Source: a virus
Length of the DNA stretch: 25,608 bases
Direction: 5' to 3' (one strand)
IMG/VR virus record: IMGVR_UViG_3300046007_004363
Location: 1-25,608 of that record
Part shown: piece by piece, positions 322 through 17,537 of the stretch
Numbering within the stretch: position 1 is the first letter of the stretch
Layout: every line of letters begins with the position of its first letter
Notes under the pieces: model-generated
Databases searched by the model: none
Told to the model about the DNA's origin: nothing
The model's input: the letters and a program-made list of their open reading frames with translations, nothing else
Program-made: the position numbers and the translations under genes

Positions 322-810
322 ATGGCTGAATTACTTGATCCCACGGAAGTATTTTTTACCCCGTTTGAGCCAAAGTTACAAAATCGTTTTATCATGTATA
401 TCGAAGGTGTTCCTGCTTATTTGGTAAAAGGTTCAGGAAGACCTAATATAAATTTTAATCCGATTACTTTGGATCACATAAACATTAAACGTAAGGTAAA
501 AGGTAAAGGTGAGTGGCAAGATATTACAATTAAATTGTATGATCCAATAGTTCCATCCGCTGCTCAGGCAGTTATGGAATGGGTGCGTTTATCACACGAA
601 TCTGTAACAGGTCGTGATGGTTACTCTGACTTCTACAAGAAAGATATTACGCTACACATCCTTGGTCCTGTTGGTGATAAAGTAGAAGAATGGACACTTA
701 AAGGTGCATTCATTACTGCCACAACATTTGGTGAAATGGATTGGGCAAACGATGCGTTTGTTGAAATTTCATTGACCTTGGCATATGATTATGCTATCCT
801 ACAATACTGA
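322..810 (+). CDS. Tail tube protein (T4 gp19-like)
   Basis: This 162-aa protein should form the inner rigid tube of the contractile tail through which DNA passes; T4 gp19 is almost the same length. The N-terminus has 'FEPKLQNRFIMYIEGVPAYL', matching the 'PK..NRF...I.G.P' start of this family. A predicted beta-rich body follows with 'W.DI.I.LYDP', and the end reads 'GEMDWAND..VEI.LTLAYDYA', typical of the last tube strands. GGAG about 8 nt before the ATG is a good ribosome binding site. Placement directly after the sheath gene and ahead of the tail chaperone and tape measure genes is standard for myovirus tails. It probably forms its own transcription unit, with the terminator at 242-272 before it and a hairpin at 852-878 after it, as would suit a highly expressed structural protein. 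Confidence 0.9.
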   Translation: MAELLDPTEVFFTPFEPKLQNRFIMYIEGVPAYLVKGSGRPNINFNPITLDHINIKRKVKGKGEWQDITIKLYDPIVPSAAQAVMEWVRLSHESVTGRDGYSDFYKKDITLHILGPVGDKVEEWTLKGAFITATTFGEMDWANDAFVEISLTLAYDYAILQY

Positions 811-934: not shown

Positions 935-1801
935 ATGACAAAAATTCCAACAGGTTATGATATACCCATGGATAGTGGTATGTCTGATGCAGATTTAAAG
1001 GCACGATTAGTTGCCGAACACAAACAGACTAATGTTAAAAAATCAAACTTCCCAACAGAGATGGTTCCATTGCCGTCAAAAGGATTAGTTTATCCAGAAG
1101 GTCATCCTCTTGCCGATGGTGTTATCGAAATGAAATATATGACTGCAAGAGAGGAAGATATTTTAACATCACAGAATTTGATTAAACAAGGCGTAGTTTT
1201 GGATAAATTATTTGAGTCTTTGATTGTTACTCCAATGAATTACGGTGATTTGTACGTGGGTGATAAAAATGCAATTATGGTTGCTGCTAGAATTTTGGGA
1301 TATGGAAAGGAATATACAGTTGAAATAGACGATCCATTCTCACCTGGAAATAAACAAAAACTAACAATAGATTTAACTCAAATTGAGCACAAGGAGGTCG
1401 ATTATTCGCCGTTTGAGAACAGAGCATCCGAATTTGATTACACACTACCCCTTTCAAATAGAACTGTAACATTCAGACTTTTAACACATGATATTGAAAA
1501 ACAAATCAAACATGAATTGAAAACAATGAATAAATCATTAGTTAAAACTGGAATTGACAAGGAACTAACAACAAGACTCAAATATGTTATTGTTGCAGTT
1601 GATGGGGAACGAGGAAGAGCAACTGTTGATAATTTTGTTGATAACGAATTATTTGCTGCAGACTCAAGAGCATTAAGACAGTTTATTAGAGAGTTTTCAC
1701 CAGATTTAGATATGACTTTCACTTTTGTTTCTGATACAACTGGTGAGGTAAAGGAGATGGATATACCGCTTGAGGTGTCATTTTTTTGGCCTAACTCCTG
1801 A
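935..1801 (+). CDS. Baseplate hub/tail assembly chaperone, T4 gp26-like
   Basis: This 288-aa protein reads LPSKGLVYPEGHPL near residues 46-59 and then 'IEMKYMTAREEDILTSQNL', a signature I associate with the T4 gp26 'T4_baseplate' family found just ahead of the tape measure gene in T4-like phages. Such proteins are thought to act in baseplate hub or tail assembly, probably on the tape measure, rather than as major structural parts. The ATG is preceded by AGGATTAG at a good distance. The 0-frame ends at TGA 1799-1801 with residues SFFWPNS. A run of seven T at 1781-1787 gives access to a +1-frame extension that looks like gp51. A 0-frame product (288 aa) and a frameshifted product of about 361 aa would mirror the gpG/gpGT arrangement of lambda. 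Function is inferred from family and position. Confidence 0.8.
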   Translation: MTKIPTGYDIPMDSGMSDADLKARLVAEHKQTNVKKSNFPTEMVPLPSKGLVYPEGHPLADGVIEMKYMTAREEDILTSQNLIKQGVVLDKLFESLIVTPMNYGDLYVGDKNAIMVAARILGYGKEYTVEIDDPFSPGNKQKLTIDLTQIEHKEVDYSPFENRASEFDYTLPLSNRTVTFRLLTHDIEKQIKHELKTMNKSLVKTGIDKELTTRLKYVIVAVDGERGRATVDNFVDNELFAADSRALRQFIREFSPDLDMTFTFVSDTTGEVKEMDIPLEVSFFWPNS

Positions 1802-2082: not shown

Positions 2083-5000
2083 ATGGCAACGGAAAATGAA
2101 AAAAAATTAGAAGAACAGATAAAATCTCTTTCGGAAGAAAGAAAAAAAATTGAAGCTGCTATTCTTGTATTAAAAAATCAAATAGAATCAACAGAAAAAA
2201 AATCTGTTGCTAATCTAGAAAGAATAATAAAATTAGAAACTTTGCGTCTTGATAGTGTAGAGAAGGAAGAAGAAATACGCAAAAAAATTGAAAAGATAGA
2301 CAAAGATACCGAAAAAAGAACAGAAAAGGCAAAAAAAGCTCAAGACGAGACAACAAATAGTCTTGAGGGAACAAATGATCTTACATCTGATCTAAACAAA
2401 GCAATGAAATCTGTAAATTCTTTGATGACAGATTTCAGTAAGACTTCATTTAAAACACAGGCCATACTATCAACATTACCAGCTGATGCACAAAAAAATG
2501 CAGCTAATATGGGTTTAACTGTAAACATTTCTGAAAAATTTGGTAAAACAATTGAAAAAGTAAAGGTACACATACAACAAGGTGGTACATATACAGACTC
2601 TTTCAAAGATTCCTTAGCAGAAACAGTTGATCTTGCATCAGATGTAGAACAAATGGAAGCTGCAATGGTTAAATCATCTGCAGATGCAATGAAAGGTAAA
2701 GCCAGTATTGTAGAGACTGATAGAGTAAGAGAAGCAATACTTGTAAAGATGTATGAGATTGAAAACGGTAGTAGCGATTTAACGAGAGAAGAAAAGAAAC
2801 TCCAAATGGATGCATTGGGTGTATTGTTGAACAAAATAGACCAGATGGATGTTGCTAATGAAAAAATAAAAGAACAAAATGATAGTATGGCTAACTTAAA
2901 TCAAATGAGTAGTAAAGTTGGTGATACAATGGGGGGATGGGTAAAAAGACTTCCAGGTGGGGATAACATATCAAATGCTTTGGGTATAGATAAAACAGCA
3001 AATAATATAAATAAGAAGATGTCTACTGCATTTACATCTGCATTAGGTGCTATAAAGGGTAAAAACAGTCCAGCCGAAGCATTCAAGGATGCGGGTTCTG
3101 CATTAGGTAGTATGATTTCAATGGCACCAAAGTTGATGGCAGGTTTAGGATTAGGGTTATTAACGGGTGCAGTTAGTTTCTTGATGGGTGCTTTTGGTGA
3201 AGTAGACCAACAAGTTTCTGATATAGGTAAGGAATTTGGTTATTCAAGAAAAGAAGCAATGGGATTGAGAGATGCGTCAATTGATATTGCTGGAGAAATG
3301 GGTGTTGTTGGTGTAAACTCAAAAGAAGTTGTAAAAAACATAGGCACCGTTTCCGAAATGATGGGTGGATTGGATATAGGTGCTCAAATTGCGGGTGGAA
3401 ATGCTGCGGCCAAACAATTAGTAAAAGATACAACTCTTTTAACAGAAAAATTCCAAATGAGTGCAGATGAAGTTCAGTCTATGCATACTCTTTCATCCAT
3501 AACCGGCAAAAGTATGGGTGAACTTGCAGGAACTGCCGCTAAAATGGGTGGTGGATTGATGACAAGTAAACAAGCAATGAAGGCACTCGCAAGTGTTCCA
3601 AAAGAAGTTGCAGTTGCTTTCAAAGGAATACCTGCACAGTTGGCTGCTGCTGCTCAGAAGGCAAAATTACTTGGACACGATTTGAAGAAAGTTCAAGATA
3701 TTGGTGATGGTATGTTAGACATAGAACAATCACTTGAAAAAGAAATGGAAGCGAGAGTATTGACTGGTAAAAATCTTCAATTAGATAAAGCCCGTGAACT
3801 TGCATTGAATGGTGATATTGCCGGATTACAAGATGAATTGTTAAAACAAGCCGGTGGTCTTGAAGACTTTACAAAGATGAATCGTATTCAACAAAAGGCA
3901 ATGGCAGATGCCATGGGTATGTCTGTTGAAGAAATGACCACGATGCTTACAAATGCAGACAAACTACAAAAGTTGGGTGTATCACAACAACGAATGGATG
4001 AATTACAGTCTAAAAATGCTGAAGAATTAAAGAAAATTGCAGGTGAAACTGCAGATGGTGCATTGAAAGCCGAAATAGAAAGAATGGCAAAAGAAAAAGA
4101 ATCTGCATCTATAAAAGAAAAGATGGCCAATATAGTTCAAAAACTACAAGAAAAACTATCAAAACTATTGACGCCTATTCTTGAAATGGTGCATGGAATG
4201 TTGGATGCAGCCGAAGCTGGTGGTGGATTTGACGATATAGTACAATCAATTTCTGGTGTAATAAAAGGTATAATTCCAATTGTAAAAACTCTTTTTGGTG
4301 TGTTATCGTCTTTAATTGGTCCTGTTACATCAGTTTTAGGATTTTTTGGTGGTATAGGTGATAAAACAGAAGAAATAACCGGTGGTGTTGCAGATGCTGG
4401 AAAGGCGGCTGAAGCAAGTCAGGCCGGTTTCGGTGGTATAATGAAAGCAGTTACATTGATTGGTGGTGCTTTTGCTGGCAAGGCATTGATTGGTAAAGGT
4501 CTTGACATGATGAAAGAAAAGGCATCAGAGTTCGGAGACACGTTAAAAGAAAAGGTTGCCGATAAAGTTGGGGATATGGGTAAAAAGTTTTTGGGTATGG
4601 GTAAGAATGCAAAAGGAATGAAAACGCCAAAGGCACCAAAAATGCCAGAAGGTGGTGGCAAAAAGGGTGGTGGGTTCATGGACTCATTGGTAGAGGCATT
4701 CAACAAAATAGATGCTAAAAAAATGTTAATGGGTGCAGCGGCATTAGTTGTTTTGGCTGCCGCTCTTTGGATAACGGCTAAGGCAGTTCAAGAATTTATG
4801 AAAGTAGATTGGGCTGCTATGGCAAAAGCCGGTGTTGCTCTTTTAGGTTTAGCCGGTGTTGCTTATTTGATAAGTAAAGTAGAAAAGGATATGATAAAAG
4901 GTGCAGCCGCAATGTTAATACTCGGTGCAGCTCTTTACGTGATTGGATTGGCATTACAATTTTTTGTAAAAATTAGTTGGGAAGATTTAGCAAAAGCTGG

Positions 5001-5985
5001 TGTTGCTTTATTAGGATTAGTTGGGATTGCGGCTTTACTTGCATATGCGGCGCCATTGGTTATAGTTGGTGCACAATCAATACTTATACTATCTGCTGCT
5101 TTCCTTGTATTTTCAGTTGGTATGTATGTTTTGAGTAAGGCAATGGCCGGATTTGTTCCAATGATGGAAACAGTTTTCAATGGAATAAACACTATAATAA
5201 CTACAATAGGTGATGCTATTGTTAAAATAATAGAAGCTGTTGCAGGTGGTATATCAACCGTAATTGATAAGTTAATGGGATTGACTACATTAAACGGTGA
5301 CAATCTATTGAAGATTGCTGCGGGTATAACTGCATTGGGTCTCGCCCTCGCTGGTTTTGGCGGTGGTTCCGGTGCAGGTGCTATTGCAGACGGTATAGGA
5401 AATGCAATCGGTGGACTATTAGGTGGTGAAAGTCCATTAAGTCAATTACAAACTATAATGAAAGATATTCAGCCAGAAAAATTATCTGGTATAGCTAAGG
5501 CAATCGTAGAACTTTCCGCTGCTATGACTGCACTTTCAAATACACTTCAAAATGTAAACTTTGATAAATTAGAAGAAGTAATGTCTGCTGTTGATAAAGC
5601 TAGTGGTGGAAGTAAAATTGGTTCTATCGTAAGTAGTATCAGTTCTTTATTCGGCGGTGGTGGAGAAGAAAAGGGTGGAGCTTCCGCCTCTCCTGCAAAA
5701 GCCGGTGGAATATCCACAGTTGGACAAACTGCGGAAACAGTTGCGGTTGGTGGTGCAGGTGGTGCAGCCGGAACAAGTGGTGCAGGTGGTGCAAGTGCAG
5801 CTGGTGGAGGAGGCGGTGGCCTTGAAGGAAAGATGGACCAACTTATTTCTATAATATCATCAATGGCATCATCACCAACGATAATACAAATTGGTGATAA
5901 AACGGTAGAAGAAATAAATGGTAGAGGCGATTTCAAGAAAACATATCAAATAGGAACGGATAATACCTACGGTAGATCCATGTAA
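2083..5985 (+). CDS. Tail tape measure protein
   Basis: This 1300-aa protein should sit inside the tail tube and set its length; T4 gp29, which does this job, is about 590 aa. The first 90 residues or so are a charged coiled coil (Lys/Glu-rich heptads). Long predicted helices follow, with hydrophobic segments near residues 344-372 and 724-759 and a cluster at 881-1027. That cluster contains a 56-residue tandem duplication (GAAALVVLAAAL...KAGVALLGLAG at 884, then GAAAMLILGAAL...KAGVALLGLVG at 940). A Gly/Ala/Ser-rich low-complexity segment occupies about 1190-1250, before a conserved-looking C-terminus (IIQIGDKTVEEING). GGAAGG just before the ATG is the ribosome binding site. Position after the gp26/gp51 chaperone and before baseplate genes, length, helicity and hydrophobic patches together support the call. 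No peptidase motif was seen. Confidence 0.87.
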   Translation: MATENEKKLEEQIKSLSEERKKIEAAILVLKNQIESTEKKSVANLERIIKLETLRLDSVEKEEEIRKKIEKIDKDTEKRTEKAKKAQDETTNSLEGTNDLTSDLNKAMKSVNSLMTDFSKTSFKTQAILSTLPADAQKNAANMGLTVNISEKFGKTIEKVKVHIQQGGTYTDSFKDSLAETVDLASDVEQMEAAMVKSSADAMKGKASIVETDRVREAILVKMYEIENGSSDLTREEKKLQMDALGVLLNKIDQMDVANEKIKEQNDSMANLNQMSSKVGDTMGGWVKRLPGGDNISNALGIDKTANNINKKMSTAFTSALGAIKGKNSPAEAFKDAGSALGSMISMAPKLMAGLGLGLLTGAVSFLMGAFGEVDQQVSDIGKEFGYSRKEAMGLRDASIDIAGEMGVVGVNSKEVVKNIGTVSEMMGGLDIGAQIAGGNAAAKQLVKDTTLLTEKFQMSADEVQSMHTLSSITGKSMGELAGTAAKMGGGLMTSKQAMKALASVPKEVAVAFKGIPAQLAAAAQKAKLLGHDLKKVQDIGDGMLDIEQSLEKEMEARVLTGKNLQLDKARELALNGDIAGLQDELLKQAGGLEDFTKMNRIQQKAMADAMGMSVEEMTTMLTNADKLQKLGVSQQRMDELQSKNAEELKKIAGETADGALKAEIERMAKEKESASIKEKMANIVQKLQEKLSKLLTPILEMVHGMLDAAEAGGGFDDIVQSISGVIKGIIPIVKTLFGVLSSLIGPVTSVLGFFGGIGDKTEEITGGVADAGKAAEASQAGFGGIMKAVTLIGGAFAGKALIGKGLDMMKEKASEFGDTLKEKVADKVGDMGKKFLGMGKNAKGMKTPKAPKMPEGGGKKGGGFMDSLVEAFNKIDAKKMLMGAAALVVLAAALWITAKAVQEFMKVDWAAMAKAGVALLGLAGVAYLISKVEKDMIKGAAAMLILGAALYVIGLALQFFVKISWEDLAKAGVALLGLVGIAALLAYAAPLVIVGAQSILILSAAFLVFSVGMYVLSKAMAGFVPMMETVFNGINTIITTIGDAIVKIIEAVAGGISTVIDKLMGLTTLNGDNLLKIAAGITALGLALAGFGGGSGAGAIADGIGNAIGGLLGGESPLSQLQTIMKDIQPEKLSGIAKAIVELSAAMTALSNTLQNVNFDKLEEVMSAVDKASGGSKIGSIVSSISSLFGGGGEEKGGASASPAKAGGISTVGQTAETVAVGGAGGAAGTSGAGGASAAGGGGGGLEGKMDQLISIISSMASSPTIIQIGDKTVEEINGRGDFKKTYQIGTDNTYGRSM
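4732..5067 (+). repeat. 56-codon tandem duplication in tape measure gene
   Basis: Two adjacent copies of a hydrophobic unit start at 4732 and 4900 (168 nt apart). Each runs from GAAA(L/M) through an aliphatic helix, a short polar turn (KVDW / KISW) and AKAGVALLGL. This fits growth of a tape measure by internal duplication. Confidence 0.7.
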
Positions 5986-6032: not shown

Positions 6033-9000
6033 ATGTCTTTGTTAGATTTAAAATCAGACTTATCAAAATATCGGGCAGAAACTTCGATAGAAGAAAAAGA
6101 AGGCCCACACACATCTGTTGCAAAAAGTAGTAAAGGTTTTGCAACAAATCAACCTATTACAGATAGATTATTAACATCTATACCAGAAATAAAAAAACCA
6201 AAACAAATACCCATAGATGAAAGATTAAAACAATCTAAATTAGATGACATCATTCGCAAAGATTTTGATGAAATGATGATAAATTCTGTTTCAGGATTGT
6301 CACCAAAAAATATAGATGTAAACACATATAATCTTGGAGTATCTTCTATTGAAAATGTTGCTTCAAAATTTGGTCAAATCAAACAAGAAGAAATTGTAAA
6401 TAATTTAAATACATCCAATACTCTGATAATAAAGTCTCAATCTGGAAACAATAATAATGATTCAAATGTAAACCCAAGTCAATTTACACAAACTGTTAAT
6501 AGAACTGAACAAAGTCCTAATATAGTGGTAAATGTTGGTGATGCAAATGATAATATAATCGTTCCTGAAATAATCATAGATGGCAAACCATTATCTATGA
6601 ATAGAGAAAATCAATCGGTAATAATAAATAAAAACTTAATTTCTCCCATAAACAATGTAATAAATCCAAACATTGCATTGAATAAGATATTTAAACCATC
6701 CGTAAAAGAAAATACAACACCTAACATTGTAAAAGATACAATAAAGGAAGGTCTTGTTGTTGATCCACAAACAAAGGTATTTAGAATACAATCTGGAACA
6801 AATCATTTTACTGATGAAAGTGAATTAAATCCAAAAGGAAAATCCATACAGTTCATATCCACATCTATGTTGGATTCAAGAAGACCACTTCAAGAACCAG
6901 ATTTGGTTAGATATAGTGGTGAAACTGTGCAGACTAGAGATAACAGTATCTATAATATAGATAATGTTATTAGAACAAATCCATCCGGTAGAAATGAAAA
7001 TCCAGATGAATCACTTTATTCATTCGATAATGCACAGGGTGTAAACTATTTCGATAATAGATATTTCAGAGGATTTAGCATAAACCAAAAATCAACAGAT
7101 TTGGTTAATAAGTATTCGTCTATATTTGGTTTTCCAGGATCAAGAGGAACTTCACCTGCAGTCAATTTCATGGTTGATACAAATTCTACTGGATTTGAAA
7201 CATTTACTCAACCAAGAGTTTCCTCGTATAAAAACGAAAGTTCAGATTATACATTTGTTACTCAAAGAAGTGTAAACTTTTTTGATATAAACGGACAACA
7301 TACAAATGCAGGTTTTACTTTATTTGCTCGTGCATTAACAAGTAATTATTTAGATAATGTTTCAAGATTTACATGGAAAGGTAAAAGACCATCTGCTCCA
7401 TCTGTTAATTATTTTGATGTTAATAAAGAGAAAAGTGTTGCTGGTTTCCACACATTTGCACAAACATATGATACAAAATTTGTAAAACAATCATCGATAT
7501 ATGATTGGGATGGAAAGAGAACTGGATCACCAGAAGTAAATTATTTTGATATAAATTCAACATATACAAAACGTGGTTTTCATAAACTTGCAGAGTTGTA
7601 TGATTCAAAATATGTAAGGGGTAGTTCTATCTTCGATTGGGATGGAAAGAGAAGAAATGCACCTGCTGTAAATTATTTTGATGTTGATTCTAAAAATTCA
7701 CAAACCGGTTTCCATACGTTTGCACAAAAATACGATAGTAAATTTGTTGCAGAATCATCTGAATTTGATTGGGATGGTGTACCTACAAATGCTCCTGCAA
7801 TAAACTATTTTGATTTAAATGGTCAATTTACAACAACAGGTTTCCATACGTTTGCACAAACTTATGATACCAAATATATTCCTGAAACATCTAGATTTGA
7901 TTGGAATGGTGTTCGTAGAAAGGCACCTTCTGTAAATTATTTCGATTTGAGTAAAGAATTTACAACAACTGGTTTCCATACATTTGCGAGAAAATATGAT
8001 ACCAAATATATTCCTGAAAGTTCTGTGTTCGATTGGGATGGCACCAGAGATAAAGCGCCTGTTGTTGATTACTTCGATTTGTATGCAACAAATACTTCAA
8101 CCGGCTTCCATTCATTTGCTCAATTATATGATACGAAATTTATAGAAGAATCTTCTATCTTTGATTGGGATGGAACAAGAGTAGATGCTCCGGAAGTAAA
8201 CTACTTTGACATCTCCGGTGGAGGTAGATCTAACTTAGAATCTACTTCTGGATTTGTTGCAAAAACTACTGCAGGTTTCCATAAATTTGCTCAGATATAT
8301 GATACAAAATATGTTCGTGGTTCATCGATTTATGATTGGGATGGTGACAAACAATCTGCACCTGCTGTAAATTATTTTGATGTATCTGGAACAAGTAGAA
8401 CTGCGAGTGAACAAAACTCTTTACTTGCACAATTTAATGTTCCAAGAAGATTTACCGCAAATACACTTGGTGGATTCCATACATTTGCACAAAAGTATGA
8501 TACAAAATACATAACAGAATCATCTGAATATAATTGGGATGGTACAAGAAATAATGCACCAGAAGTAAATTATTTTGATATTGCACAAACAAACAGAACT
8601 ATATCCGAATTTACAGGTGGTTTTAGGTCATTCACAACAGCTGGATTCCATAAATTTGCTCAATTATATGATTCAAAATATATTAAAGATTCTTCAAGAT
8701 ATGATTGGGATGGTAGGGCTGACAGAAAAAATTTCCGAAATCCAATACCGGTAGATTACTTCGATAATCCAAATGCAAATGCAAGACGTTTTGGTACACA
8801 ATTCATAATAAATACACCAAACGATTATCGTGCGGGTATAATGACTGTTGGTACAAAAGATAAATTTATTGCAAAAACTTTTGGTGGTTTCCATATATTT
8901 GCTCAATTGTATGATTCAAAATATATTCCTGAAAGTTCACGATTCGATTGGGATGGTACGAAAGATAGAGCACCTTCTGTAAATTATTTTGATACATTCC

Positions 9001-12000
9001 AATCAAACAGAACAACATCAGAAGAAAATTCTTTACTCGCAGACTTCAATAGACCAAAACAATTTATAGCAAGTACAACTGCTGGTTTTCATATATTTGC
9101 TCAAAAGTATGATACCAAATATATTAAGTATGCTTCGTTGTATGATTGGGATGGTGTTCCTGATAAAACTAATTTTAGAAATCCAGTACCAGTTGATTAC
9201 TTCGATACATTTGAATCAAATAGAACTACATCTGAAGAAAATTCTTTACTTGCAAACTTTAATCGATCTAAAGATTTTATTGCAAAAACAACTGCTGGTT
9301 TTCATATATTTGCACAAAAGTATGATACAAAATATATTAAAGACGCATCAATATATGATTGGGATGGTAGAGCTGATAGAAGGAACTTCACCAATCCAAT
9401 AGCAGTAGACTTCTTTGACAATATAGGATCAGTTAGTGACTATCGTAGACGTTCTAATGTTGGTGGTGAAAACTTCTTAGACGGTGCTGGTTCAGTTAAT
9501 GGGTATAACACACGATCAAATATCGGAGGATTTGCATTCCTTAAACAGATTGGTACAAAAGATAAATTTGTTCAAAAAACTTTATCTGGTTTTGATATAT
9601 TTCCAGAACATTATGTAACACGATATATTCATGGTGCATCAAGATTTGATTGGGACGGACCAAGACAAGACGCACCAGCAGTTGATTTCATGGATACTGT
9701 TGCATCCGGCGATGTATTCATTAAAAATACATTAGGTGGTGGCGACTATCTACGTGGAATTATTGCTTTAGGTAATTTACCAGTAAGAACTTTTCAAGGT
9801 GGAAATAAATCTAGATTAGATTATAGTTTATCAGGATATACACATAGTGGTTTCACTACTTTTGCACAAATATATGATACACAATATACCTTTAAAGTAG
9901 ATAGGTTTGGTTGGGTTGGTGGTGTGGATAGAATTGGATTATCAAATCCTATTCCAGTTAATTTCTTTGACAACCATGTAACAATAAGTAATGGTTCGGA
10001 TTCTGTTGCTTATGATAATGAGAGTAGACCTGGAACAGTTCCAAGTCAAGCAACAGTAATAAACGGACAGCGTAGGGGATATGGAGAAATAAATCCTGGT
10101 TCGATATTATTTCAACTTGGAAAAATAAGCACAAAGGATCAATTTATTGCAAAGACAACTGCTGGTTTCCATATACTTGCTCAGAGATACGATTCAAAAT
10201 ATGTTTGGGATTCTTCTGTCTTTGATTGGGATGGAACAAAATTAAATGCACCAACTGTAAATTATTTTAACGATAGATACGGAGACGGTTTCCGTAAATT
10301 TGCAATAGAATTAGTATCTGATTTAAAACCAGATAGTGGTAGATTCAATTGGGCAGGTTCAAGACCAGATGCTCCAGCAGTTTCATATTTTCCACAATTA
10401 CAACCTAAAACTGATCATGCAAGAAAGATAGCTATTTTTAGTAATCAAACTGAACCAACAAGTCCTGTGATTACAATAGGGGAGGATGCAGTTGTTCCAC
10501 CTGAATTGTTTAAAAAATCTGGATTGTCTCCTGGATTTAGAAGATTTTTCATAAACAAAACTCAAACTGCATATTCACCGTATCTTTCTGAATTTTCAGT
10601 TCTTGCAACTGCTAATCCATATACTAATTTTTTCCAAGCACCAAATGGTTACAAACTTTCAGGAATAAATGGATTAGAGGCAACTGATCCATCTACACTT
10701 GGAATGGTAACGGGTCTATTGACTGGTATAGGTGGGTTTATACCATATCTTGGATCATTAAATAGACCAACTAAAGATCCAAGTGTAACCGAAATTGGTC
10801 TTGGTGATTATTTATCAAGTGATAATATAAACTCATTTGATAAAGTTTTATATGATACACTAAAATTTTCGGGTGGGAAACAAAAATATAGTTCATCTGT
10901 TGTAAAACGTTCATCAATAAGAACAAAAACTTTGGGTTCAAATCTATCTTTAATAGATGCAGATATTAAAAACACAACATTTTTCTCATGGGGAAAATGG
11001 CCAGTAGCAAAAGATAAAGGATTTTTGCGTAATATGTCTCTTTTTAAAGGAACGTTATACCCAATAATTTTTGAACATTTTGATAATAGGGATCGTCCAG
11101 ATGTAGTATTTGAAGATACAATAGGTAGCATAAATTTAATAAATATATTGGGTGTTCCTGGAGGCGATTCAAACCGCAATACACGTATTACATATGGTAC
11201 TAGCACAGAGTTAAAAGTTGAACATGGTCGCGGAGATGGTCAGAGCAATTTCGATACTAATGCATACGGTTTCACACAGGGCTTAAAAGGACAGGCATTT
11301 TTAGATGCTCTTTTGCCACACTCTTTGGGAAAAAGACCTTGGTCTTCTGCAATCGGTAATAGTTTGTATTCAACATTACAAAATCAATATCCAATTTATA
11401 CATTTGATGCAAATTCAAGATTTTATGGTTATCGTAGACCTAGCAATTCAAATCCAGCGGAACCTGTACTTGATAATGTTGATCAATTCGGTGCAAAATT
11501 TGCAGATGTTTCGATATACAGAACGGGTGCAGGTGGACCATATGAGAAAATGTTAAAGAATGGATTTTGGGTTCAACCTGAAAATGTTAATAATTCGGAT
11601 CAAATACAACCTGGTGCAGTAAATACTCGTCCTGGTTATCATGGAACAAAAGGATATGAAAGGTTTGGTAGAGGCGGTAATTCTGAAACAGGATTTTTCA
11701 GAATAGATGAAAATTCAGAAAATTTAGTTAGACAATATGGTTATATTGGTCGTTGGGCTTTACAGACTGGAGAACTTGATAAACAATATAAAAAGTTTGA
11801 TTTAAGAGAAGATTCATACAATCCAGATATATTTTGGTCACAACCTTATTATGTATCTGATATAGGTGCAAATTGGGGATGGGGTGCACTTGCTTGTGGT
11901 AGAATGAGTCCAACAACTCAATTAGACAGAAGACTTGCTGATTTGCAGAGAATTGCAAAGTTTATGACATCTGGAAAAGGATTGTTATGGACATTGAAAC

Positions 12001-14987
12001 AATTTGGTATGCAGTTTATGAATCCATTTGTTGATACATGGGGTGAACCTTTCGATCTTTTTGAACAGAGATCTTATCAAGATATTGGTTCAAGTGAAAG
12101 AAGAATATCGGTTGTGAATAATTCTGTTCTACCTAATATATTTGATACCACAGGAGATCCGGTTGGTCCCAATAGTGGATTGGGATCAGGTGGTTCTATT
12201 TTTATGCCACCCCCAACAATGTTGTATAATCCATTATCTACTTTAATAAGTACAGTTGGTTCCGGTATAGGTTTACATTGGCAAAGACACTGGAAATCTG
12301 CAGGATTTGGGTTTGGTGGTGCACATCAATGGGTTCCAAATTATCGAGAACAAGTGGCAACTGCAACTATGTCAGCTGGTGTGGAACAATCAAGAACATC
12401 TTTTCAAAATCCGTTAGCAAATAGACCAAACATGGGCAATCTCTCAGGAGATCCAGCAGGCACAAGACGTATTCCTGATGATTTAAACCAACATTATGAG
12501 GCACAAACCACTTATAGAAATAAAACCGGGTTTATCAATCAAAATATCGGCGGAATAGATTACAAAGAAAAATCATTCCATAGAAAATCAAATGGTACTT
12601 GGGAGACTCCTGCTCCTGATCAATCACAATGGTATTCATTACAAAACGAAACTCCAGGAAATGGGCGAGGTAATGCTACTGGAAGTCCCGTTGCATCAGG
12701 ACACGGTGCATCTTTGGATTATTTTGAAGAACCAAGAAGAACTAACCCAATAACACGCCAACGTAGATATAATAGATTGATTGGTTTAATGAAAGAATTA
12801 TTACCACAATCTTTTTCACCAAATCTTGTTGCTGATAGAGATGGTAGAACACAACAATATGGTCCACCTGCACCTGGATCACAAACAGGAACAACATCAA
12901 CTCAACCAGAGATAAATTCCGATCTGAGAGTAAGGGCAAACGCTGCGTTGATTGCAACTAATAGAACAAGACTGTCTGATGCGGAGATAGTAAGACTGTC
13001 ATCAAATTTTGGTGGACCTGGTTCATTCTTTGGTATAGGTGGAACCAGTATAAACAAATCAAGACACAAACTACTTGGAACATATACAACTTCTCCTCTT
13101 TTAAATAAAGATTTAGTTGAAGAAGGAAAACAAAGAGAAACATTCTTTGCATTAGATTTCTATGCAACATATAAAGATAGATTGTTAAAGTTAAAACCAA
13201 CTATAAATTCTGCATTTCCAAATGGTAATGAATTGGGTGGTGATTTGTATGCAATAACAACTGGATTAAAAACTAGAGATTTAGGAAGAAATAATGGAAT
13301 ATACAGTGCAAATCCGTTAAAGGATCCTAATGATCCAAACAATCCTATTGTTGGCGAAAATATAACAATACAACCAATAACTGCTCGTAAAATAAATGCA
13401 ATTGCCACGAATAGAAATGATCTCATGTTTACATACGAAAGTTCCGAAAACAGATTGAGAAACTCTACCGTAAATGAACTGCGAACACAAAAAGGTGGTG
13501 GTGCATCAATGACTGGTGTTAATCCAAAAATTAAAGATTATTTTACAAGTGATATTAAAAAATTTAAAGTGTCAAATTATTTACATAAACACACTTATGA
13601 TTCAACATCTACATTAAGACCAGGAACATCACCAAACATTTGGCTAAATCCAAGTTGGACACCAAATAGAAGTAGAAAATTCAATGATTTTAGATGGGAT
13701 ATAGAGGATATAAATTCAACTTATTCTCCACCAAATTCTCCAAGAAACACAACTGGATGGAACAATTTAATATCTATGAAATTTTCTACACATCCTGCTA
13801 TTTCTGATTACAAAAAAAATAATTTAGAAGATAAGTTTGGTTTAGGAAAACACGGAGAACCTGGTTCTGATAGAGGAAATCCAAGAGTAACAAATATAGT
13901 GTATACCAAAGTTCAAACAGCTCTCGGTTCGACTAATGCAGGACTTGCAGCTATTGCTGGAAATTTAGCAACAACTCCTGCTGCTGGTGCTACCAGAAAT
14001 GGAACATCATTTTCAACATATTCTGTTCCAGTTTTAAAAAATCAAGGAGCTGGTCCTGGTATTCCAACAAACGTATTTCGCGGAGATAGAATAAATATAA
14101 TAGATTACAAACGTGCTAATTTTCCTCTAACACATGATTTGGTTTATGAAAAAGGATTATTTAATAATCCAAGCTTACCTGGAACAGATGATCTTATAGA
14201 ATTTTATTTTTCAAGTATAGTATTAGATGGTCATAATTACTGTCCTGCAGAAGTAATTGTTTTTAGAGCCATATTTGATAGTATAACTGACAATCATAAA
14301 CCATCATGGTCTGCTGTAAAATATATGGGTAGAGGTGATCCACTCTATACTTACGATGGATATGAAAGGGATGTTAGTTTTAATTTTACTGTTCACATTG
14401 GATCTCGCGATGAAATGAAAGCATCGTGGCGTAAATTGAATTATTTGGCAGGATGGACAGCACCGGAATATACTAGATCTGGATTTATTCGTGCTCCACT
14501 TTGTAGATTAAATATGGGTAATTTATTCAAAAAAATGCCAGGATATATTAGCTCATTGAGTTATACATTTGATAATACGAATGGAACATGGGAAACTGCA
14601 AATTTAGACGGAGATAGATTCAATCAAAATACAGATAGTAGTGTTGAGTTTGAAACTACACCGGGTGTATTACAATTGCCAAAAACAATACAAGTTGCTT
14701 GTTCATTTGTACCAATAGGCGTATATCGTCCTGAAAGATTTGGTGTATTCTATCCCTTATATGACGATAGTACAAATAATCCTGCAGAAATTGAAAATGG
14801 ACTTATACCAAATACAGACGATAGAGTTAATTGGTTTAAACCTTTTGATGATATATCGATTCCAACGATAGTGAATGGTGCTCTTCCTGCCGGTGCTGAT
14901 GCTGATGTTATTGCTCATCTTGCAGTTGCTCCGGGAGAAGAAGAAGATTTGGCACAAGTTACTTTAAGTAATCCACCGCCGCCATAA
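6033..14987 (+). CDS. Giant repeat-containing baseplate protein with tube-initiator-like C-terminus
   Basis: An uninterrupted 2984-codon frame starts at ATG behind AGGAAG. Residues 1-335 are polar and Asn/Gln-rich with no fold I recognise. Residues about 336-1456 hold some 19 copies of a repeat, consensus GFHxFAQxYDTKYIxxSS, then (F/Y)DWDG, a short spacer and APxVNYFD. Residues about 1460-2700 are non-repetitive, with 'GKGLLWTLKQFGMQFMNPF' and 'LYNPLSTLISTVGSGIGLHW', stretches I recall from uncultured marine phage structural proteins but cannot name. Residues about 2705-2945 contain GRGDPLYTYDGYERDVSFNF, W.KLNYLAGW, MP.YISSL and TWE, resembling tail-tube initiator/cap proteins (T4 gp48/gp54 type). 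The protein ends in SNPPPP. Lying between the tape measure gene and LysM/hub genes, it is most likely a baseplate component. It could instead be a fibre- or whisker-like surface protein attached through that C-terminal domain. The exact role is inferred. Confidence 0.65.
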   Translation: MSLLDLKSDLSKYRAETSIEEKEGPHTSVAKSSKGFATNQPITDRLLTSIPEIKKPKQIPIDERLKQSKLDDIIRKDFDEMMINSVSGLSPKNIDVNTYNLGVSSIENVASKFGQIKQEEIVNNLNTSNTLIIKSQSGNNNNDSNVNPSQFTQTVNRTEQSPNIVVNVGDANDNIIVPEIIIDGKPLSMNRENQSVIINKNLISPINNVINPNIALNKIFKPSVKENTTPNIVKDTIKEGLVVDPQTKVFRIQSGTNHFTDESELNPKGKSIQFISTSMLDSRRPLQEPDLVRYSGETVQTRDNSIYNIDNVIRTNPSGRNENPDESLYSFDNAQGVNYFDNRYFRGFSINQKSTDLVNKYSSIFGFPGSRGTSPAVNFMVDTNSTGFETFTQPRVSSYKNESSDYTFVTQRSVNFFDINGQHTNAGFTLFARALTSNYLDNVSRFTWKGKRPSAPSVNYFDVNKEKSVAGFHTFAQTYDTKFVKQSSIYDWDGKRTGSPEVNYFDINSTYTKRGFHKLAELYDSKYVRGSSIFDWDGKRRNAPAVNYFDVDSKNSQTGFHTFAQKYDSKFVAESSEFDWDGVPTNAPAINYFDLNGQFTTTGFHTFAQTYDTKYIPETSRFDWNGVRRKAPSVNYFDLSKEFTTTGFHTFARKYDTKYIPESSVFDWDGTRDKAPVVDYFDLYATNTSTGFHSFAQLYDTKFIEESSIFDWDGTRVDAPEVNYFDISGGGRSNLESTSGFVAKTTAGFHKFAQIYDTKYVRGSSIYDWDGDKQSAPAVNYFDVSGTSRTASEQNSLLAQFNVPRRFTANTLGGFHTFAQKYDTKYITESSEYNWDGTRNNAPEVNYFDIAQTNRTISEFTGGFRSFTTAGFHKFAQLYDSKYIKDSSRYDWDGRADRKNFRNPIPVDYFDNPNANARRFGTQFIINTPNDYRAGIMTVGTKDKFIAKTFGGFHIFAQLYDSKYIPESSRFDWDGTKDRAPSVNYFDTFQSNRTTSEENSLLADFNRPKQFIASTTAGFHIFAQKYDTKYIKYASLYDWDGVPDKTNFRNPVPVDYFDTFESNRTTSEENSLLANFNRSKDFIAKTTAGFHIFAQKYDTKYIKDASIYDWDGRADRRNFTNPIAVDFFDNIGSVSDYRRRSNVGGENFLDGAGSVNGYNTRSNIGGFAFLKQIGTKDKFVQKTLSGFDIFPEHYVTRYIHGASRFDWDGPRQDAPAVDFMDTVASGDVFIKNTLGGGDYLRGIIALGNLPVRTFQGGNKSRLDYSLSGYTHSGFTTFAQIYDTQYTFKVDRFGWVGGVDRIGLSNPIPVNFFDNHVTISNGSDSVAYDNESRPGTVPSQATVINGQRRGYGEINPGSILFQLGKISTKDQFIAKTTAGFHILAQRYDSKYVWDSSVFDWDGTKLNAPTVNYFNDRYGDGFRKFAIELVSDLKPDSGRFNWAGSRPDAPAVSYFPQLQPKTDHARKIAIFSNQTEPTSPVITIGEDAVVPPELFKKSGLSPGFRRFFINKTQTAYSPYLSEFSVLATANPYTNFFQAPNGYKLSGINGLEATDPSTLGMVTGLLTGIGGFIPYLGSLNRPTKDPSVTEIGLGDYLSSDNINSFDKVLYDTLKFSGGKQKYSSSVVKRSSIRTKTLGSNLSLIDADIKNTTFFSWGKWPVAKDKGFLRNMSLFKGTLYPIIFEHFDNRDRPDVVFEDTIGSINLINILGVPGGDSNRNTRITYGTSTELKVEHGRGDGQSNFDTNAYGFTQGLKGQAFLDALLPHSLGKRPWSSAIGNSLYSTLQNQYPIYTFDANSRFYGYRRPSNSNPAEPVLDNVDQFGAKFADVSIYRTGAGGPYEKMLKNGFWVQPENVNNSDQIQPGAVNTRPGYHGTKGYERFGRGGNSETGFFRIDENSENLVRQYGYIGRWALQTGELDKQYKKFDLREDSYNPDIFWSQPYYVSDIGANWGWGALACGRMSPTTQLDRRLADLQRIAKFMTSGKGLLWTLKQFGMQFMNPFVDTWGEPFDLFEQRSYQDIGSSERRISVVNNSVLPNIFDTTGDPVGPNSGLGSGGSIFMPPPTMLYNPLSTLISTVGSGIGLHWQRHWKSAGFGFGGAHQWVPNYREQVATATMSAGVEQSRTSFQNPLANRPNMGNLSGDPAGTRRIPDDLNQHYEAQTTYRNKTGFINQNIGGIDYKEKSFHRKSNGTWETPAPDQSQWYSLQNETPGNGRGNATGSPVASGHGASLDYFEEPRRTNPITRQRRYNRLIGLMKELLPQSFSPNLVADRDGRTQQYGPPAPGSQTGTTSTQPEINSDLRVRANAALIATNRTRLSDAEIVRLSSNFGGPGSFFGIGGTSINKSRHKLLGTYTTSPLLNKDLVEEGKQRETFFALDFYATYKDRLLKLKPTINSAFPNGNELGGDLYAITTGLKTRDLGRNNGIYSANPLKDPNDPNNPIVGENITIQPITARKINAIATNRNDLMFTYESSENRLRNSTVNELRTQKGGGASMTGVNPKIKDYFTSDIKKFKVSNYLHKHTYDSTSTLRPGTSPNIWLNPSWTPNRSRKFNDFRWDIEDINSTYSPPNSPRNTTGWNNLISMKFSTHPAISDYKKNNLEDKFGLGKHGEPGSDRGNPRVTNIVYTKVQTALGSTNAGLAAIAGNLATTPAAGATRNGTSFSTYSVPVLKNQGAGPGIPTNVFRGDRINIIDYKRANFPLTHDLVYEKGLFNNPSLPGTDDLIEFYFSSIVLDGHNYCPAEVIVFRAIFDSITDNHKPSWSAVKYMGRGDPLYTYDGYERDVSFNFTVHIGSRDEMKASWRKLNYLAGWTAPEYTRSGFIRAPLCRLNMGNLFKKMPGYISSLSYTFDNTNGTWETANLDGDRFNQNTDSSVEFETTPGVLQLPKTIQVACSFVPIGVYRPERFGVFYPLYDDSTNNPAEIENGLIPNTDDRVNWFKPFDDISIPTIVNGALPAGADADVIAHLAVAPGEEEDLAQVTLSNPPPP
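7038..10400 (+). repeat. Array of about 19 in-frame coding repeats (basic period 132 nt)
   Basis: The GF(H) start of each unit lies at 7071, 7191, 7311, 7443, 7575, 7707, 7839, 7971, 8103, 8274, 8472, 8643, 8886, 9084, 9297, 9588, 9849, 10164 and 10287. From 7311 to 8103 the spacing is exactly 132 nt (44 codons). Afterwards it lengthens to 171-315 nt, because extra modules sit between units, and then shortens to 123. All spacings are multiples of three. The first and last units are the most diverged. Neighbouring copies at about 9000-9130 and 9210-9345 remain very similar in DNA, which suggests fairly recent duplication. Confidence 0.9.
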
Positions 14988-15047: not shown

Positions 15048-15383
15048 ATGGAAAATCGTTACAAATCTTGTAATATAGTAACTGGTTCAAGAAAATTAGA
15101 ATCAAATGGAAACCAAACCACAGTATCTAGGTTATCAACAACATTTTACCCAAACCTAGATACAGGTGGTGATAATATGATTCTTTCACAACCAGGCGAT
15201 AGATTGGATTTAATTGCAAAAGAATACTATGGAGATGAAACATTTTGGTTTGTTATAGCAGTTTCTAACAATTTAGGTAGAGGGACATTATATGTTCCAC
15301 CTGGTACATTACTTCGTATACCAAGATACTCTGAATATAGTGGTATTGCTTCGCTTGTTCAATCATTTAATGAGGAGAGATAA
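15048..15383 (+). CDS. LysM-like baseplate protein (T4 gp53-like)
   Basis: This is a 111-aa protein. Residues about 43-98 read 'SQPGDRLDLIAKEYYGDETF', then 'WFVIAVSNNLGRGTLYVPPG' and 'LLRIPR'. This is the LysM-type pattern (D.L..IA...YGD...W..IA..N......G..L.IP) used in small baseplate proteins such as T4 gp53 and P2 gpX, where it binds other baseplate parts rather than necessarily peptidoglycan. It is shorter than T4 gp53. AGGA precedes the ATG, and the next gene begins 3 nt after the stop, so the two are surely co-translated. Its place between a tube-initiator-like domain and the hub gene fits a baseplate wedge or hub connector. The exact T4 equivalent is uncertain. Confidence 0.72.
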   Translation: MENRYKSCNIVTGSRKLESNGNQTTVSRLSTTFYPNLDTGGDNMILSQPGDRLDLIAKEYYGDETFWFVIAVSNNLGRGTLYVPPGTLLRIPRYSEYSGIASLVQSFNEER

Positions 15384-15386
15384 TTT

Positions 15387-17537
15387 ATGCCAGTAGTGGG
15401 AGGAAGACACGTAAACCCTTTTTATAGGCAGGTTGATCCTTATGTTGTAAATGAATTAAATGCTAGAGGAAACATACATGGTCAAAGAGTTAGGGGTGCA
15501 TCTAGAAGTGCAACTGCTGGAACTGGTGGTGGTGATGCTGCTAGGAATTTGAATTGGGGATATGGAAAAAAATCTTGGTGTAGAATATACTCACCAACCA
15601 CTGGCATTGTTTTAGGAACAGCTGGTTCATCGGTTATGAGTACAAGAAACGGTGATCTTACATTGTATAGTGCAGCAAGAAATGTTCCAAGATACCCATT
15701 ATTACAAAGTCTAGATGTCAATAATGAGGGAACAATGGGATCTTTATTGAAAGGTAAATTTACATTTACAATATATCCTAGAATAACTACTAATGGATTT
15801 GTATTGGATCGTATAGAAGATGCATTTTTTACACCTGGTGCAGAAGTAAATGTAAATTGGGGATGGAGTGTAACAGCCGCAAGTGCACAGGCATGTACCG
15901 GAAAATTTACAGGAATAATATACAATTTCAATTGGAGCGTTAATCCTGATTTATCAATAACAGCAGATTGTTCAATAGTTTCGGCAGCAACTATTTCAAC
16001 TGGTATGTCAGGTGACGTTAATACCGGTAATGATCCAAATGATACACCTGTCACAATCGGAACAAACCCTTTACCTGGACCTAATATCGCATCAGTTATA
16101 GATAAAGATTTGGCAGGTGGTCCTGGATTTGCAGCAACCTTTGGGCAGGCACCTATGACACAAACATATATTGGTTTTGCCGGTACGTCCACACAAATGA
16201 TGGAGTATTATGCTATAGGTTTACCATTTCAACCAACGGAACCAGAATCAACTGGTAATACAGATCCCGGAGCCCAAAATCAGGGGGCAGCCCAATTAGC
16301 AGCTGCACGTCCAGTTACCCCTCCGGTGCCAAAACCTTTTTATTATACTAAACTTCAAACTGTTGTAGAATTTATCAATAAGGCAATAGATCAACTTGAA
16401 ACAGGCACTGCAGGTCCACCAGGACGTCCACCAGCGATTGGACCTGATGATGTGATGAAAAGACTTTTTAGAGTACAGGTTTACGGTAATTATACTGCAT
16501 GGAATGATCAAATAAGATCTGCGTTCCCTGTTGATGTATTTTTTCCAGATGACATAATGGGTGAATATGGTGGTTCGTCACCATTTACTGCACCTGCACC
16601 ACTTAGATCTCAGCCAGGAAGTATCGCACCTCCTGGAGTTCTTAACGGTGGTAACATCGCAATAGGTGAGATACTAATTGGAACCGATTTTTTGAAAAAA
16701 ACATATAAAGAATTTGTTGCAGAAAATGCTGCAAATATATCTCATAAAAATTTAACAAGTTTTTTTGAAACAATATGTAAAAGAATAAATTATGCAACAG
16801 GTGATGTTTACCAATTATCTCCTGTACTTTTTGAGACGGAAGATTTATCGGGTTTAACACCGCAAGGTGTAAGGGATCCGACTCCGGCTATACTGTCAAT
16901 AGAAGACACTAATTTAACTAACGAGGCAACTGCTACATCAGCAGTTGTTCCCTATCCATTCCGCGTTGATATAAGTGCAGCTATAATTAGAAATGCATCA
17001 ATATCATGTAAACCACCCGCAGCATCAGCCGCTGCCGCATATACGGCAGCAAGAGCTGAGACATCTCGAACAAGTAAACCAACCAATTCTGATGTTAAAG
17101 TTAGCCCAACTGCTGGTACTGGAGTACCCGCACCATCTGCTCAAATGACTGGTAATCAAAGATCCGCTGCTACCGATTTAACAGCTAAAATCGCAAATGC
17201 TTTAACCGATGGTTTTAACAATGCATGGGGTGAACAGTATAGAGGATTGATTACAAAATGGAAAAAAACTTTAGTTGCATCTAGTCCAGGTGGTGCAGGG
17301 TCAGCAAATGGTCATTGGATGAAAAAGGCGGTATATCCAATAGATTTAACATTGACCATAGATGGTATTATGGGATTTAAATTTGGAGACACCATTCAAT
17401 GTTTTGCAATACCTGCAAGATATAATCAAGATCCTTGGAACATAGTCTTTACTGTAACTAAAATAAGTCATAAAATAGATGCTGGTGCATGGACAACCAC
17501 TTTAAATACAAAAGCTCGTGTTAGTATGGGTGGATAA
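15387..17537 (+). CDS. Baseplate hub protein (gp27/gpD-like)
   Basis: This is a 716-aa protein. Residues about 100-165 read 'PRYPLLQSLDVNNEGTMGSL', then beta strands and 'FFTPGAEVNVNWGW', a pattern of hub proteins that form the top of the cell-puncturing device. The last 65 residues read 'PIDLTLTIDGIMGFKFGDTI', then 'PARYNQ...FTVTKISHKID' and 'WTTTLNTKARV'. This matches the C-terminal strand set of phage late-control gene D / hub proteins. Between them is a Pro/Ala/Gln-rich linker (about residues 275-315) and a region I do not recognise. No lysozyme or peptidase motif is visible. GGAGAG lies before the ATG. The stop codon overlaps the next start (TAATG). Confidence 0.75.
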   Translation: MPVVGGRHVNPFYRQVDPYVVNELNARGNIHGQRVRGASRSATAGTGGGDAARNLNWGYGKKSWCRIYSPTTGIVLGTAGSSVMSTRNGDLTLYSAARNVPRYPLLQSLDVNNEGTMGSLLKGKFTFTIYPRITTNGFVLDRIEDAFFTPGAEVNVNWGWSVTAASAQACTGKFTGIIYNFNWSVNPDLSITADCSIVSAATISTGMSGDVNTGNDPNDTPVTIGTNPLPGPNIASVIDKDLAGGPGFAATFGQAPMTQTYIGFAGTSTQMMEYYAIGLPFQPTEPESTGNTDPGAQNQGAAQLAAARPVTPPVPKPFYYTKLQTVVEFINKAIDQLETGTAGPPGRPPAIGPDDVMKRLFRVQVYGNYTAWNDQIRSAFPVDVFFPDDIMGEYGGSSPFTAPAPLRSQPGSIAPPGVLNGGNIAIGEILIGTDFLKKTYKEFVAENAANISHKNLTSFFETICKRINYATGDVYQLSPVLFETEDLSGLTPQGVRDPTPAILSIEDTNLTNEATATSAVVPYPFRVDISAAIIRNASISCKPPAASAAAAYTAARAETSRTSKPTNSDVKVSPTAGTGVPAPSAQMTGNQRSAATDLTAKIANALTDGFNNAWGEQYRGLITKWKKTLVASSPGGAGSANGHWMKKAVYPIDLTLTIDGIMGFKFGDTIQCFAIPARYNQDPWNIVFTVTKISHKIDAGAWTTTLNTKARVSMGG

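Follow-up and report, generated by a model that had tools for sequence, protein, structure and literature searches.

What is the function of a 2984-aa phage protein with a long array of repeats, and why does it carry so many of them? The protein is encoded in IMG/VR virus record IMGVR_UViG_3300046007_004363. The window analysed here is that whole record of 25,608 nucleotides, which is clearly a fragment of a larger phage. A sequence-only reading had noted about 19 repeats with an exact 44-codon period in six consecutive units, and had suggested a regular solenoid or stacked fold and perhaps an extended baseplate arm, whisker or host-contact spike. To address this question, we analysed the repeats, the remainder of the protein, its gene neighbourhood and its relatives in other phages. 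The features considered below are as follows.

322..810 (+), tail tube protein, gp19 type (PF06841, E 8.3e-7; phrog_4542, E 7.8e-28)
935..1801, baseplate-hub-like protein (phrog_150)
2083..5985 (+), tape measure protein, 1300 aa, with heptad periodicity (phrog_4372, E 3.7e-12)
6033..14987 (+), giant protein, 2984 aa, ATG start: repeat arm, middle region and predicted tube-initiator domain
6033..7190 (+), N-terminal part of the arm (aa 1-386): conserved start MSLLDLKSDLSKYR, one copy of the ~20-aa 'SKLDDI' element (up to about 7 copies in relatives) and ~18/37-aa 'LTFDR..SPNI / NPNI' elements
7191..10391 (+), 44-aa repeat array (aa 387-1453): GFHxFAQxYDTKYIxxSSxFDWDGxxxxAPxVNYFD
7311..8102 (+), block with exact 44-codon period (six spacings, aa 427-690)
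11949..12026 (+), conserved middle motif (aa 1973-1998) RIAKFMTSGKGLLWTLKQFGMQFMNP, close to the N-terminus in armless relatives
14103..14837 (+), C-terminal domain (aa 2691-2935), predicted tail-tube-initiator fold
15048..15383 (+), baseplate wedge (gp53-like) protein (phrog_7145, E 2.3e-9)
15387..17537 (+), next structural gene, 716 aa, without a family match; probably a baseplate hub, as inferred from its position

The repeats are real, and the count of about 19 was right. Seven consecutive units (starting at aa 427, 471, 515, 559, 603, 647 and 691) give six spacings of exactly 44, whereas insertions between the later units stretch the spacing to 57-105 aa. A profile built from the units (consensus GFHTFAQLLDTKYIKDSSRFDWDGSRQDAPEVNYFD) found 17 full-length and 3 partial units between aa 324 and 1453. 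Self-identity at lag 44 over aa 427-747 was 0.545, as compared with a maximum of 0.15 at any lag in 2000 shuffles. The sequence-only reading had not noticed that the repeats end at about aa 1453, so that the C-terminal half is non-repetitive and conserved, nor that relatives carry further, shorter repeats (about 18-20 aa) upstream of the 44-aa array. Searches of Pfam, PHROGs, NCBIfam and PDB sequences, with the whole protein and with its domain, gave nothing significant; in particular, no known repeat family (tail fibre, collagen or Ig-like) matched the repeats. AlphaFold2 gave no confident fold for eight units (pLDDT 30). A solenoid is thus neither shown nor excluded, and a chain that folds only on a partner fits as well.

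The giant gene directly follows the tape measure gene, and the order tube, tape measure, giant, gp53-like parallels 29-48-54 of T4. The nearest isolate is Microcystis phage Mel-JY01 (190 kb), which has the same order and a 2255-aa orthologue. Orthologues were also found in 56 viral contigs, which encode close relatives of the C-terminal domain, whereas no relatives were found in bacterial genome contigs. We found no account of such a protein, and no mention of Mel-JY01, among openly licensed papers.

To obtain information on the conserved C-terminal domain, we modelled the orthologue of viral contig L012 (five units plus the whole C-terminal part) with AlphaFold2. The model was of low to moderate confidence (mean pLDDT 43; the domain about 35-65 in ten-residue blocks) and showed a tail-tube-like beta fold with long hairpins and one helix. 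Foldseek returned baseplate tube-initiator-type chains of contractile injection systems and phages (9gtp_M, E 7.7e-4, probability 1.0; 6j0n, 6rao, P1, Mu, T4). VIA-align gave Z scores of 9-10 to the same class (baseplate proteins of P1, Mu, PVC, AFP, T4 (5iv5_BE) and A-1(L)), and a search of predicted viral structures added the 'baseplate tail tube cap' proteins of S-CAM3 and CP20. Comparison of the family profile with the single T4 sequences of gp48 and gp54 by hhalign gave E values of 0.27 and 0.61, which are not significant. The assignment to initiators of the T4 gp48/gp54 type, which have equivalents in PVC (Pvc7), AFP, pyocin, Mu and P1, therefore rests on predicted fold and gene order. 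In T4, gp48 and gp54 form a platform for the tube (PMC3004832); they are only 364 and 320 aa and are not known to contain repeats, whereas here a ~1450-aa repeat arm and a ~1200-aa middle region are added.

Next, we asked whether the arm is a general feature of these proteins. A wider search showed that most distant relatives are about 450-900 aa long and have the C-terminal core but no repeat arm; in many of them the middle motif (S..G..F..KQ..L) lies near the N-terminus. Armless examples are Flavobacterium phage immuto (716 aa), Rhodothermus phage RM378 (458 aa) and viral contigs L178, L181 and L185. These share the C-terminal domain by sequence (hhalign of the two alignments, probability 100, E 6.5e-59; RM378 by tblastn), and immuto, L178 and L185 also have the middle motif near the N-terminus. 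Armed versions are the window's clade, the distant relative L228 (IMGVR_UViG_3300022821_000013; 16 units of 39 aa, same repeat family) and LR756508, an uncultured 484-kb phage. LR756508 has the same architecture of arm, middle motif and C-terminal domain, with a presumed tape measure of 1602 aa directly upstream, but its arm (aa 20-905) consists of about 54 very acidic ~17-aa repeats of unrelated sequence (net charge -249 over 900 aa). Searches for further relatives of LR756508 and L228 found none beyond themselves, so these two lineages stay single points. The arm is most simply explained as an addition to a tube initiator.

The lengths of the giant protein and the tape measure looked coupled, and we therefore collected both for 39 phages. 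The arms are built of 44-aa units and, upstream of these, of elements of about 18-20 aa; the position of a landmark after the first such array steps by about 20 aa (83, 103, 124, 145, 165, 184, 204). The shorter elements were measured through the position of the first 44-aa unit and not counted one by one. With tape measures called from ATG only, regression gave R2 0.945. The worst residuals proved to be seven tape measures of one clade (contigs L047, L048, L050, L053, L054, L055 and L056) that start with GTG and that ATG-only gene calling shortens by 16-55 aa. With the GTG starts, tape-measure length = 453 + 21.0 (± 0.75) × units + 1.22 (± 0.055) × position of the first unit, with R2 0.967 and a residual SD of 17 aa, less than one unit. 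Each 44-aa unit thus goes with 21.0 tape-measure residues, and each ~20-aa element with about 24.

This relation was found while exploring and was then tested in several ways. Phylogenetic contrasts on a tree of the C-terminal domain gave R2 0.87 (p about 1e-14 for each term). Permuted lengths reached at most R2 0.46 in 10,000 trials, as compared with the 0.945 obtained with ATG-only starts. Leave-one-out Q2 was 0.960, and each of five clades was predicted from the others with an rmse of 10-37 aa. The result was stable to profile thresholds of 5-20 bits (R2 0.94-0.98) and to removal of near-duplicates. Unit number rather than residue number carried the relation: the length of the repeat region explained much less (R2 0.58), as did the length of the whole protein (R2 0.35), and the window's own clade, with its inflated spacers, deviated in length but stayed near the line in unit number. 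As internal controls, neither the length of the C-terminal part of the same protein (R2 0.09) nor that of the neighbouring 716-aa baseplate gene (r -0.26, p 0.14, n = 34) followed the tape measure. Out of sample, the line predicted 1675 aa for the tape measure of LR756508 (observed, 1602) but only 868-910 aa for that of L228 (observed, 1035), a miss of about six to eight units.

How can a predicted tube initiator come to match the tape measure? A tape measure (T4 gp29, lambda gpH) is stretched along the tail, so its length stands for tail length; this is established for phages in general, and we use it here as a stand-in. A protein whose unit number follows the tape measure so closely most simply spans the tail too. 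In the explanation that we favor, and which we consider fairly likely, the protein is the tail-tube initiator of a T4-like contractile tail, extended at its N-terminus by an arm of repeats. The C-terminal domain, probably in six copies as for gp48 and gp54 in T4, would sit at the top of the baseplate and start the tube. The arm would leave it and run up the tail beside the growing tube, with about one repeat per tail ring, bound to something that repeats along the tail (tube, sheath or tape measure). Since repeats of different sequence and size count alike, the arm would be a chain of equivalent binding modules whose number is kept matched to tail length. Our data establish the repeats, the initiator fold (in a model of moderate confidence), the gene order, the presence or absence of the arm among relatives, and the close relation between unit number and tape-measure length. 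That the arm physically spans the tail and binds along it, that there is one unit per ring and that there are six copies is inferred from sequence and by analogy with T4. The arm may lie in the lumen, between tube and sheath or on the tape measure itself, and it may help to set the length or only match it; the armless relatives make a strictly necessary ruler role unlikely. T4 has 590 aa of gp29 for 23 rings of 40.6 Å and six copies each of gp48 and gp54 (PMC3004832), that is, 25.7 aa per ring. The slope of 21-24 aa per unit is 5-20% below this value, so one unit is about 0.8-0.95 of a ring, close to but not proof of one unit per ring. The intercept of about 450-490 aa, without matching units, may be tape measure lying in the baseplate and neck, or rings served by the non-repeated part. 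We also considered each 44-aa unit as two ring-binding halves, but dropped this reading because the slope speaks for one unit of either size per 21-24 residues.

Other readings appear less likely. The arm could bind the tape measure coiled coil itself, one unit per about three heptads, before or during tube growth, so that the pair together sets tail length. The slope of 21.0 residues per 44-aa unit equals three heptads, the tape measure shows heptad periodicity (7, 14, 21, 35, 42, 49, 56) and the two genes are neighbours, which keeps this reading alive. However, armless relatives with tape measures of 1006-1226 aa show that length control does not in general need a partner, and the ~20-aa units give about 24 rather than 21 residues each; we regard it as possible but unlikely. 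It is very unlikely that the relation is indirect, either because larger phages have longer tails and also longer repeat proteins, or because the two adjacent genes are exchanged as one block. The contrasts retain R2 0.87, the C-terminal part and the next baseplate gene do not scale, and block transfer would preserve, not create, a straight line across clades. Moreover, close relatives that change both together are seen (contigs L031 and L032 differ by +1 unit, +40 aa upstream and +54 aa of tape measure).

The interpretation given in the sequence-only reading was supported in part. The reading as a baseplate-associated structural protein with a repeat that matches no known family was supported, but a whisker or host-contact spike was not. 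In favor of an outward appendage, the initiator domain would attach the arm at the baseplate, repeat number varies, and neighbouring repeats resemble each other (some are identical in Mel-JY01), as in fibres that recombine unequally. However, such an appendage has no reason to match the tape measure to within one unit in 39 phages, by unit number and not by residue length, and we consider it very unlikely.

A further-reaching possibility, which we regard as about as likely as not, is that the arm is a second, modular length-matched element of contractile tails, a repeat chain fused to the tube initiator that binds ring by ring along the whole tail and whose repeat number is selected to equal the ring number. 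It would have arisen at least twice with unrelated repeats, in the window's clade and in LR756508, and could act with the tape measure in setting length or in holding tube and sheath together. Tail length is held to be set by one protein, the tape measure. Here, a second protein carries a countable record of tail length, as represented by the tape measure, in which each repeat stands for 21-24 tape-measure residues, whatever its sequence; the match lies in the number of modules fused to the predicted tube initiator, not in helical length. If the arm spans the tail, it is a new tail component, and its repeat number lets ring number be read from a genome and gives an independent test of how tape measures translate residues into rings, with the armless relatives as a natural control.

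Repeats also occur elsewhere in proteins of this family: in contigs L217, L218 and L220, a different 42-aa acidic repeat in variable copy number (aa ~240-420) lies between the middle motif and the C-terminal domain, that is, in another place than the arm. The initiator protein of L228 carries a C-terminal OmpA-like stretch at aa 1472-1513 (Pfam OmpA, E 5.6e-4, below the gathering score), which would place a possible peptidoglycan-binding domain on a tube initiator. Finally, in contig L071 (5229-8353), two ORFs of 657 and 382 aa in different frames stand upstream of the giant gene where one tape measure gene is expected, reflecting either a broken gene, a frameshift or an assembly error.
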